From: an uncultured Pelagibacteraceae bacterium
Lineage (GTDB): Bacteria; Pseudomonadota; Alphaproteobacteria; Pelagibacterales; Pelagibacteraceae
Assembly (NCBI GenBank): GCA_902531455.1
Contig: CACAEM010000019.1
Span: forward strand, 1-9,705
Direction: 5' to 3'
DNA: 9,705 nt
The translations under genes were made by a program, and so were the position numbers. This document shows, in pieces, positions 1 through 5,244 of this stretch (positions are counted from its first letter, which is position 1; every line of letters begins with the position of its first letter). The notes below the pieces were generated by a model that was not told the origin of the DNA, ran no database searches, and worked only from the letters and a program-made list of their open reading frames with translations.

Positions 1-1
1 T

Positions 2-253
2 TATTATACTTTCGTAATTGTCACCTTCTCTAATAATATAATCAAATTTAGTGTATCTATTTTCTAGCTCAGAGGTTATTTTGATAATTGTTTTTTGAAG
101 ATAAATATTGTTTAAAGTTTTTTTTAGATTTTTATATTGTGATATTTTATTAGTTTCATAAAAATATGTTACAAAAGTTGTAATAATAATTAATAAAATT
201 AACCATATAAAATGTGAATGTGATTTTATTTTTTTTTTAAATTTTGTTAACAC
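2..253 (-). CDS. N-terminal fragment of a membrane-anchored protein, probably an M23 peptidase (runs off left edge)
   Basis: This minus-strand frame is open from a stop at 269-271 to the window edge. I place the start at GTG (251-253) because no in-frame ATG exists; that gives 84 visible residues. Seen: a basic stretch (KFKKKIK, residues 4-10), one hydrophobic segment at about residues 14-32 (HFIWLILLIIITTFVTYFY), then a hydrophilic region ending ENRYTKFDYIIREGDNYESI. That layout, a signal anchor followed by a short Y-x-K and EGD segment, resembles as I recall the amino end of SAR11 M23 peptidases, which sit in the inner membrane with the catalytic domain in the periplasm. It lies divergent from the rRNA operon. 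The catalytic domain would lie left of the window. The matching C-terminal half of such a protein appears at 4309-5244 in the opposite orientation. The open frame is well supported; the family call is a pattern-based inference. No convincing Shine-Dalgarno sequence is visible. Confidence 0.6.
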   Translation of the reverse strand, partial: MLTKFKKKIKSHSHFIWLILLIIITTFVTYFYETNKISQYKNLKKTLNNIYLQKTIIKITSELENRYTKFDYIIREGDNYESII

Positions 254-322
254 AATTTGTACAATAGATTAAAAATGTTGATTTATATGACTTTTTAACA
301 CATTTTTAGTTTATCTAAAAAC

Positions 323-350
323 TTGATTTATAAATTATTTCCAATATAAG
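323..350 (+). promoter_or_regulatory. rrn P1: Probable sigma-70-type promoter of the rRNA operon
   Basis: TTGATT at 323-328 is followed after 16 bases by TATAAG at 345-350, a fair match to the housekeeping -35/-10 pair and the best one I found upstream of 16S on the plus strand. Transcription would begin near 356-359 and give a leader of about 180 nt. The assignment is by eye; no start site is known. A minus-strand promoter for the gene ending at 253 must share this intergenic region; only a weak TATAAA-like -10 (plus-strand TTTATA, 282-287) is visible for it. Confidence 0.45.
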
Positions 351-430
351 CGTCACACTCAACATATAAAAAATGTTATTTATTGGGCTTTATGGTCCAA
401 TTAGCTATTTGAATTGTTAATATTTTAAGA

Positions 431-455
431 AGAGAAGTGTGGACGGTTAAGGTTA
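431..455 (+). promoter_or_regulatory. 5' arm of the 16S pre-rRNA processing stem
   Basis: Bases 431-455 pair antiparallel with 2058-2082 across the whole 16S gene. AGAGAA (431-436) pairs with TTCTCT (2077-2082), GGACGGT (441-447) pairs with ACCGTCC (2066-2072), and the connecting bases pair apart from two mismatches and a few G-U wobbles. Bacterial 16S precursors are typically enclosed in such a stem and cut there by RNase III. The pairing is directly visible; the processing role is inferred from the general rule. Confidence 0.75.
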
Positions 456-2191: not shown

Positions 2192-2198
2192 ATTTTCT

Positions 2199-2274
2199 GG
2201 GGGATTAGCTCAGCTGGGAGAGCGCCTGATTTGCATTCAGGAGGTCAGCGGTTCGATCCCGCTATCCTCCACCA
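2199..2274 (+). tRNA. tRNA-Ala(TGC)
   Basis: This is a 76-nt tRNA with encoded CCA. Acceptor GGGGGAT (2199-2205) pairs with ATCCTCC (2264-2270) with one G-U pair, which fixes the start one base earlier than a GGGGATTAG reading would. The anticodon stem CCTGA/TCAGG encloses anticodon TGC at 2232-2234. The T-loop GTTCGATC is present. It lies 7 nt after tRNA-Ile in the rRNA internal spacer. Confidence 0.97.
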
Positions 2275-2424
2275 TGAAACACTTAGCTATTATATTTGTG
2301 AATATTTTATAATTATTATCAATATCTATATCCGATTGTTCGAAGATTTGAACAATCAATTAATATTCGAATTGATGAATATTAAAAAAAATTTGATTCA
2401 ACACAGAATTTTTTTCTGTGCATA
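2275..2424 (+). other. tRNA-Ala to 23S spacer with three consecutive hairpins
   Basis: No gene is seen in these 150 bases. Three inverted repeats follow one another: GATTGTTC (2334-2341) / GAACAATC (2350-2357); TTAATATTC (2360-2368) / GAATATTAA (2377-2385); and CACAGAA (2402-2408) / TTCTGTG (2414-2420) with a T5 loop. The last is nested inside TTGATT (2393-2398) / AATCAA (2425-2430), whose right arm is the 5' end of 23S. They are probably folding or processing elements; the matching 3' side of the 23S processing stem is absent from this window. Confidence 0.6.
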
Positions 2425-4310
2425 AATCAAGCGTTTAAGGGCGTGTGGCGGATGCCTTGGCACTGAAAGCCGATGAAGGACGTGGTATACTGCGATAAGT
2501 TACGGGGAGCTGTATGCAAGTTTTGATCCGTAAATTTCCGAATGGGGAAACCCACCACTTTATGTGGTACTTTAAACTGAATACATAGGTTTAAAGAGAC
2601 AACCCGGAGAACTGAAACATCTAAGTAACCGGAGGAAAAGAAATCAATTGAGATTCCGTTAGTAGTGGCGAGCGAAAACGGAATAGGCCAGTAGATTTGT
2701 TGAAAAAATTTGAATAGTTTGGAAAAGCTAACCACAGAGGGTGATAGTCCCGTATGAGTAATGTTTAACAAATTTCTTGAGTAAAGCGGGACACGTGAAA
2801 TCCTGCTCGAATATAGGGGGACCACCCTCTAAGCCTAAATACTCTTCAGTGACCGATAGTGAACTAGTACCGTGAGGGAAAGGTGAAAAGAACCCCTATT
2901 AGGGGAGTGAAATAGAACCTGAAACCGCATGCCTACAATCAGTCGAAGCTCTTTTTAGAGTGACGGCGTACCTTTTGTATAATGGGTCAGTGACTTAATT
3001 TATAAAGCAAGCTTAAGCCATCTAGGTGTAGGCGTAGCGAAAGCAAGTCTTAATAGGGCGATAAGTTTTATGAATTAGACCCGAAAACGAATGAGCTTAC
3101 CATGAGCAGGTTGAAAGCAAGGTAACACTTGCCGGAGGACCGAACCAGTTGACGTTGAAAAGTCTTTGGATGACTTGTGGTAAGGGGTGAAAGGCCAACC
3201 AAATTCGTAGATAGCTGGTTTTCCGCGAAAACTATTTAGGTAGTGCGTTGAATAAATATGCGTTTAGAGGTAGAGCACTAAATGGGCTAGGGGGAAGAGA
3301 TTCTTACCAAACCTAATAAAACTCCGAATGCTAAATGTAGTTCTTCAACAGACAGACTGTGGGTGCTAAGGTCCATGGTCGAGAGGGAAAGAGCCCAGAC
3401 CACCAGATAAGGTCCCAAAATTGTGATTAAGTGTGAAAGGATGTGGAAATTCCATAACAGCCGGGAGGTTGGCTTAGAAGCAGCCATCCTTTAAAGATAG
3501 CGTAACAGCTCACCGGTCTAATAGAGTTTCTGCGCCGAAGATGTAACGGGGCTAAAATCACATACCGAATCTGTGGGTTTATAAAGTTTTCGAACTTTAT
3601 AAGCGGTAGCGGAACGTTCTGTAAGCCTGTAAAGGGATACCCGTGAGGGATCCTGGAGGTATCAGAAGTGCGAATGCTGACATGAGTAACGATTAAAGAA
3701 GTGAAAAACTTCTTCGCCGAAAATCCAAGGGTTTCTGCGCAAGGTTAATCCGCGCAGAGTTAGTCGGCCCCTAAGACGAGGGCGAAAGCCGTAGTCGATG
3801 GAAATAAGGTTAATATTCCTTAACCAGATGGAAGTGACGGATTTTGTAAGTTGTGTGTTCTTAATGGATTGAACATGCTGCGAAAAAGTCCCAGGAAATA
3901 GCTCCATCATTAAGACCGTACCCTAAACCGACACAGGTGGATTAATAGAGTATATTTAGGCGCTTGAGAGAATGATGTTGAAGGAACTCGGCAAAATGCT
4001 TCTGTAACTTCGGGATAAAGAAGACCTTTTTTTGGGCAACCATTAAAAGGTGGCACAAGCCAGGGAGAAGCGACTGTTTATCAAAAACACAGGGCTCTGC
4101 TAACACGTAAGTGGATGTATAGGGTCTGACGCCTGCCCGGTGCTGGAAGGTTAATGCGATGGGTGCAAGCTCATTTCTGAAGCCCCAGTAAACGGCGGCC
4201 GTAACTATAACGGTCCTAAGGTAGCGAAATTCCTTGTCGGGTAAGTTCCGACCTGCATGAATGGCGTAACGATTTCTCCGCTGTCTCCAACATCAACTCA
4301 GTGAAATTGA
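2425..4310 (+). rRNA. rrl: 23S ribosomal RNA, 3'-truncated
   Basis: This is the 5' two-thirds of the large-subunit RNA. The 5' end aligns with the E. coli start (AATCAAGCG for GGTTAAGCG), and conserved blocks follow in order through GATAGCTGGTTTTCC (3211-3225) and GGCGGCCGTAACTATAACGG (4195-4214). The 4202-4228 segment matches the I-CeuI homing-endonuclease recognition sequence. Homology ends at GTGAAATTGA (4301-4310), by my count about E. coli position 2019. The remaining roughly 880 nt, with most of domain V including the peptidyl-transferase loop and all of domain VI with the sarcin-ricin loop, are missing, and no 5S gene follows. The 1886-nt piece could not work alone as a ribosomal RNA. 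The sequence continues directly into peptidase coding sequence, so the break is a rearrangement or an assembly chimera. Confidence 0.95.
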
Positions 4311-5244
4311 TAAAAAAAATAACCCTAAGATTGAAAAATTTGTAATTGAGATTAACAAAAAAAAAGAAATATATTATGTAAGAGATAATAAAAAAAATAT
4401 TTTTTATTCAAAAATCAACGAGAAAGAGCTTACTAAAATTCTTTCTTATAAAGAAAGTGAGATTACTAATAGTCTTTATCAAACTGCTCTTAGCTTAAAA
4501 ATTAAACCAAATATTATTATTGAATTTGCAAGATTATATGGCTTTCAAGTAGATTTTCAAAGAGATATTTGGAAAAATGATAGCTTTCAAATTATATTTG
4601 AAGAATTTTTAAATAAAGATGGGAAAGTAATTGAGACTGGTAATATAATATTTACTAATTTAAATTTACAAAATAAAGACCTTAAACTTTACCGACATGT
4701 GTATGAAAAGGATAAAATTGATTACTTCGACGAGAATGGCAAAAGTATGAGAAAGACTTTAATGAAAACTCCAATAAATGGAGCTAGATTATCATCTTCT
4801 TTTGGTAAAAGAAAACATCCCATTTTAGGTTTTACAAAAATGCATACAGGAACTGATTTTGCTGCCCCAACTGGTACGCCTATACTAGCATCAGGAGATG
4901 GTTTGGTTACGAGAGCCCAATGGTGTGGAGGTGGAGGAAATTGTGTGAAAATAAAACATAATAGAGTTTATCAAACTGTTTATGCACACATGTCAAAGTT
5001 TGGTAGAGGAATAAAGAAAGGGGCTAGAGTTAAACAGGGTCAAATAATTGGTTACGTTGGTTCAACAGGTCTTTCTACTGGTCCACATTTACATTATGAA
5101 GTTATTGAAAATGGAAGAAAAATAAATTCACAAAAACTTAAACTTCCTTCTGGGAAAATATTAAAGGGCGATCAACGTAAAGTATTTGAAGTAAATAAAA
5201 TTAAAATTGATGTTCTAAAATCTAATCTAATATCTAAAATGTAA
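4309..5244 (+). CDS. M23 (LytM-type) metallopeptidase, 5'-truncated C-terminal part
   Basis: Zinc endopeptidases of family M23 cut peptide cross-links of peptidoglycan outside the cytoplasm. The frame is open from the 23S junction (about 4309) to TAA at 5242-5244, giving 311 residues. The catalytic domain spans about residues 160-275. Seen: FGKRKHP, then H179 and D183 in MHTGTDFAAPTGTPI, the motif WCGGGGNC from residue 205, H227 in YAHMSKF, and H260 and H262 in GPHLHYEV. By family rules H179, D183 and H262 bind zinc and H227 and H260 complete the site, so the domain looks intact. The upstream 150 residues (IIIEFARLYGFQVDFQRDI and neighbours) match the accessory region of these proteins. No start codon fits: GTG at 4699 would leave out conserved sequence, and the frame upstream of 4309 is 23S with a stop at 4267. 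The anchor and start are therefore lost. A matching N-terminal type lies at 2-253. It ends 1 nt before the convergent DUF4167 gene. Confidence 0.9.
   Translation, partial: DKKNNPKIEKFVIEINKKKEIYYVRDNKKNIFYSKINEKELTKILSYKESEITNSLYQTALSLKIKPNIIIEFARLYGFQVDFQRDIWKNDSFQIIFEEFLNKDGKVIETGNIIFTNLNLQNKDLKLYRHVYEKDKIDYFDENGKSMRKTLMKTPINGARLSSSFGKRKHPILGFTKMHTGTDFAAPTGTPILASGDGLVTRAQWCGGGGNCVKIKHNRVYQTVYAHMSKFGRGIKKGARVKQGQIIGYVGSTGLSTGPHLHYEVIENGRKINSQKLKLPSGKILKGDQRKVFEVNKIKIDVLKSNLISKM

Follow-up and report, generated by a model that had tools for sequence, protein, structure and literature searches.

Peptidase pieces on both sides of a truncated rRNA operon

The window examined here is a whole stretch of 9,705 nucleotides (nt) from an uncultured Pelagibacteraceae bacterium (contig CACAEM010000019.1, assembly GCA_902531455.1), and its relatives place it in the SAR11 group (Pelagibacteraceae). 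It carries a ribosomal RNA (rRNA) operon with a complete 16S gene, tRNA-Ile, tRNA-Ala, and the 5' part of a 23S gene. On either side of this operon lies a piece of a single gene for an M23-family peptidase, followed on the right by an ordinary run of SAR11 genes (Table 1). The 23S gene passes directly into the right-hand peptidase piece, and the nature of this inverted join is the subject of the present study.

The left piece is a minus-strand frame of 84 codons (positions 253 to 2) that begins with a GTG at 253 and is open at the window edge. A hydrophobic stretch, FIWLILLIIITTFVTYF, lies close to its N terminus, and a Pfam search with this piece returned no family over its cut-off. The right piece is a plus-strand frame that runs on from the 23S gene and contributes 312 peptidase codons (4306 to 5241) before the stop. 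The earliest ATG, GTG, or TTG codon in it is the GTG at 4699, and thus it has no natural start. It matches Peptidase_M23 (PF01551; 2.7e-34, 117.6 bits against a curated cut-off of 28.7), and a match to the second domain of Csd3 (PF19425) is below threshold (20.8 of 27 bits). The zinc-ligand motif of M23 peptidases consists of H-x3-D and H-x-H. HTGTD and HLH can be read in the translation of the right piece and are predicted to provide these ligands. An initial annotation, made from the sequence alone, had described a minus-strand, anchored N terminus with no visible catalytic part at the left edge and a plus-strand, catalytic C terminus with no start to the right of the 23S gene; both descriptions are borne out.

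The two pieces tile one protein. Among the best 120 of 7999 scored proteins, both pieces matched the same homologue in every case and overlapped in none; a comparison with a full-length homologue had been proposed in the initial annotation as a check. The gap between them was 35 residues in all 114 pairs whose alignments reached both inner ends. The pieces correspond to residues 1 to 84 and 120 to 431 of the intact protein, which is usually 431 residues long (50 of the 70 loci in which a start was found; the length survey covered 72 of the 80 loci introduced below, omitting L057, L058, L060, L067, L071, L075, L076, and L077). Together they account for 396 of the 431 residues (84 + 312), close to the single, nonoverlapping gene of about 395 residues with a short missing middle that had been proposed. 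Placed in the frame common to the relatives, base 1 of the window is position 7893 and base 4304 is position 7996, and the 102 bases between them (7894 to 7995) are absent. The window's copy shares with family M23 the strong C-terminal match and the HTGTD and HLH motifs but is split and is without residues 85 to 119.

A different possibility is that the left piece encodes a membrane-anchored protein and the right piece an unrelated M23 enzyme. The failure of the left piece to reach any Pfam cut-off would fit such a pair of genes. However, the presence of both pieces, without overlap, in one protein in all 120 of the best-listed homologues rules this out, and we give it practically no credence. 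The top-ranked relative of both pieces was the same locus, L001 (83.4% DNA identity for the left piece and 92.5% for the right), which fits one source genome, though the best relatives of other segments differ. As judged by comparison with intact genes, a single ordinary SAR11 gene has been split into the two pieces by an inverted join inside the 23S gene.

The 23S gene itself is truncated, ending without its 3' ~870 nt. The Rfam match runs to position 4338, and the alignment to relatives ends at 4310. Identity to the best relative is 99.9% for the 16S gene and 99.3% for the 23S part, which indicates that there has been no decay, and all retained parts of the window show normal conservation. 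When a 404-base 23S sequence was searched against six relatives, one match each was found in the two genomes with an unmasked 23S gene; in the other four the 23S region was masked and there were zero 23S matches. Rescue of the broken 23S gene by a second rRNA operon was considered and rejected on the strength of the single match in each of the two testable genomes.

Native arrangement in SAR11 relatives

The locus was compared with the best 80 of 501 peptidase loci of relatives in genome contigs. The C-terminal part of the peptidase and the 16S gene were both present in 73 of these loci, and in all 73 they lay on opposite strands and diverged; the native SAR11 order is a peptidase gene divergent from a 16S-Ile-Ala-23S operon. 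Both sides of the 23S breakpoint were present in 32 of the 80 loci, and the 23S gene was uninterrupted in every one of them. Only these 32 loci could be checked across the breakpoint, and long masked runs of N, with inner ends inside the rRNA operon, occur in 36 of the 80. A further set of loci (L081 to L112, five of which repeat genomes already among the first 80) was uninterrupted at the 23S breakpoint in 31 of 32 cases. L108 (contig 8 of genome G099) is a 4544-base contig that ends, perhaps by chance, 15 bases beyond the window's 23S breakpoint, in native 23S sequence.

The peptidase gene is also typically whole, with a stop-to-stop frame of at least 425 codons in 73 of the 80 loci. Six of the remaining seven frames are truncated where their contigs end, and that of L077 is frameshifted. 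The L077 frameshift lies beside a run of A near codon 120, not far from where the window has its junction, and is perhaps a sequencing error.

Relative to this arrangement, positions 1 to 4310 of the window align on the minus strand and positions 4304 to 9705 on the plus strand. Outside the inverted block, the window has the same genes in the same order as the native locus, 23S-Ala-Ile-16S / M23 peptidase-DUF4167-prmC (for example, in L018 and L015), with best relatives that are 83.4% to 99.9% identical depending on the segment. The native locus differs in that its rRNA block has the opposite orientation, its 23S gene is 2753 nt long (in both L018 and L015), and its peptidase gene is whole. 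Read against these alignments, the window is the native locus with the block from the middle of the peptidase to about nucleotide 1886 of the 23S gene joined back to front. The relatives thus have the ancestral order needed for either model of the initial annotation, an inversion or an inverted chimera.

The junction and searches for it elsewhere

At the breakpoint, marked here with a slash, the native 23S sequence is ...CAGTGAAATTGA/ATTC..., and that of the peptidase gene in L001 is ...AAAATTGA/TAAA.... Across the join, the window reads ...CAGTGAAATTGATAAA.... Comparison of the three places the switch within AAATTGA (4304 to 4310). The number of bases shared at the join varies among the 72 relatives surveyed: 7 in 34 (including L001), 6 in 3, 5 in 3, 4 in 4, 3 in 1, and 2 in 27. 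When the rRNA strand of L018 was joined at random to its peptidase strand in 20,000 simulated trials, at least 7 bases were shared with a frequency of 0.00075 and at least 2 with a frequency of 0.18. Should the 7-base match be real, the join relied on it, but such reliance is no guide to whether amplification or a natural event was at work. The joined sites in L018 are at 3583 and 7996, about 4.4 kb apart.

A search of 397 family genomes for a 26-base junction pattern, allowing 3 mismatches at most, gave no hits, although masking may hide some 23S sequence in these genomes. A 410-base query spanning the junction matched 310 of the 397 genomes (two candidates were scored per genome), and the top-scoring matches listed cover only bases 1 to 210, the 23S half. 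Because the list is ordered by score, a match across the join would outrank these. The exact 30-base junction sequence was not found in viral contigs. When compared with three reference loci, none of 112 loci had a mixed-strand arrangement, whereas the window shows mixed strands against L018. A recurrent or phase-variable inversion was rejected because no second example was found in the 397 family genomes or the 112 loci.

Origin of the inverted join

A study of a single amplified Escherichia coli cell provides a basis for comparison (Lasken and Stockwell 2007, PMC1855051). As given there, 406 of 475 chimeras were inverted, 337 of the 406 inverted chimeras joined sites less than 10 kb apart, priming involved 2 or more complementary nucleotides (21 at most) in 76.8%, and there was about one junction per 22 kb. 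The window has the same features as these inverted chimeras from multiple displacement amplification with phi29 polymerase: its join is inverted, less than 10 kb separates the two sites, the stretch between them is lost, and a short sequence is shared. Its second segment is inverted, as judged against relatives rather than its own genome; its sites are about 4.4 kb apart; and its 2 to 7 shared nt are within the range of 2 to 21 nt. It differs in being one assembled contig and not raw reads.

Very likely, the window represents an ordinary SAR11 locus turned into an artificial inverted chimera, and phi29 polymerase, acting in the course of multiple displacement amplification, is its most probable source. 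This explanation is favored because the 23S gene is truncated, the junction was found in no searched relative, and the signature is that of known amplification chimeras. Our high confidence in it is based on that match to a known artifact, on the biological cost of the arrangement, and on its absence in the searched relatives, rather than on reads. The initial annotation had named an inversion and an inverted chimera and chosen neither. Both of its models, and its argument from orientation, fit the data, and the comparison with relatives now favors the chimera.

Such a chimera might have formed as follows. A strand copied from the peptidase gene via the 16S gene into the 23S gene would have been displaced at its 3' end (...GTGAAATTGA-3'). 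The displaced end could then have paired again, this time with a neighboring displaced strand with which it had a few bases in common at peptidase codons 119 to 121, and been extended outward through the C terminus of the peptidase, DUF4167, and onward. The junction would thus have arisen in the tube, and the remainder of the peptidase, DUF4167, and prmC would be expected a second time, in inverted form, to the left of base 1.

Several considerations weigh against a chimera. Amplification of the sample is itself a presumption. The 7-base match is deduced from the peptidase sites of relatives and not from the window's own native site, and 27 of the 72 relatives share only 2 bases at the join, with 3 to 6 shared in 11 more. 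A short shared sequence together with an inversion is also possible for a natural rearrangement. Furthermore, 78 of the 80 loci carry AG- or AH- isolate names, which we take to be single-cell names, with some titles specifying a metagenome-assembled genome (MAG). The absence of any mixed-strand locus among loci that mostly bear such names suggests that chimeras of this type rarely reach contigs.

A real chromosomal inversion in the lineage of the cell, in which breaks in the peptidase and 23S genes were rejoined at each end through a short stretch of shared sequence, would yield exactly the order and orientation observed. The shared sequence could mediate such an event, every retained piece is undamaged, and an inversion of the amplification type was seen at none of the 112 loci. 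However, an inversion would cut the 23S gene, which had one match per genome in the two genomes that could be tested, and would detach the final ~870 nt of that gene from the rest of the operon. It would also cut a peptidase gene whose reading frame is complete in 73 of the 80 loci, and it was not found in the 397 genomes searched. We consider it unlikely because a 23S gene with a single match in each testable genome would be broken. It is very improbable that a living SAR11 bacterium has a true inversion through a conserved peptidase gene and the one 23S gene it possesses, with the 3' third of the 23S gene transcribed separately from the peptidase promoter to give a working 23S rRNA in two pieces.

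A join introduced by assembly or library ligation, possibly between two closely related cells, rather than by amplification, also has to be considered. The close relationship among SAR11 populations would allow for it, as would the change of the window's best relative from segment to segment. However, the joined ends share few bases at most, too few for an assembler. Words of 25, 55, and 95 bases are given for the assembler of one single-cell pipeline (PMC11253033), and because seven shared bases are shorter than these words, a misjoin by software only is unlikely. Random ligation would seldom join sites 4.4 kb apart in inverted orientation, and L001 is top-ranked for both peptidase pieces. 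We regard such a join as quite unlikely. As excerpted, a further report on chimerism (PMC11247762) concerns the mixing of organisms, and the word stem "inver" is not found in its main text.

Other features of the window and contig ends

The coordinates of all features are collected in Table 1. Within the collinear stretch at the right, DUF4167 and the AA_kinase/ACT domains were recognized with Pfam. The genes that we take to be prmC, prfA, ispG, and aspartokinase, the last cut by the right edge, were named on the basis of sequence and context. Among relatives, identity reaches 97.5% in the intergenic stretch at 254 to 535, compared with 83.4% at most in the adjoining N-terminal part of the peptidase, as is expected of an rRNA promoter and leader region.

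Table 1. Features of the 9,705-nt window
Feature	Position	Strand	Basis
M23 peptidase N-terminal piece, residues 1-84 of ~431	1..253	-	Frame 253-2, tiling, alignment to intact gene
Conserved intergenic stretch, divergent peptidase to 16S	254..535		Up to 97.5% identity to relatives
16S rRNA, complete	536..2010	+	Rfam RF00177, 1525 bits; up to 99.9% identity to SAR11 loci
tRNA-Ile (gat)	2115..2191	+	ARAGORN
tRNA-Ala (tgc)	2199..2274	+	ARAGORN
23S rRNA, 5' ~1886 of ~2753 nt	2425..4310	+	Rfam, alignment; full length from L018 and L015
Probable chimeric junction, AAATTGA	4304..4310	+	7 bases common to 23S and peptidase of L001, 34 of 72 relatives
M23 peptidase C-terminal piece, residues 120-431, predicted catalytic domain and stop	4306..5244	+	Pfam PF01551, tiling
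Ordinary SAR11 neighborhood, collinear with relatives	5246..9705	-	Alignments over 4304-9705; Pfam for DUF4167 and AA_kinase/ACT

In SAR11 relatives, contig ends are concentrated within the 5' third of the peptidase gene (L004, L011, L022, L057, L058, and L060; common-frame positions 7852 to 8127). Six of 14 left contig ends fall within 300 bases (binomial probability 6e-6, for an interval picked after seeing the data). The stretch is A-rich, with runs of up to 9 in L018, and window base 1 and the junction are also located there. The position of base 1 (7893, 103 before the junction at 7996) was evaluated as a sign of the assembly-graph form that a chimera would have and was not taken as decisive because the contig ends of relatives cluster there too. 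Four more contig ends (L009, L037, L044, and L053) fall at the window equivalent of 2191 to 2564, in the spacer and the start of the 23S gene, where conserved rRNA perhaps confuses assembly. Some single-cell pipelines trim contig ends by 100 bp. Pipelines differ in this respect, with trimming of 200 bp given in the excerpt of PMC11253033.

Implications

If the inversion were true, a group that is among the ocean's most abundant bacteria would have a member with a split 23S gene. If, as is far more likely, the window is a chimera, it provides a worked example of an apparent amplification-type inverted chimera that survived into an assembled contig. Its truncated 23S gene, falsely split peptidase gene, and false gene order should then be flagged and not read as the biology of SAR11.

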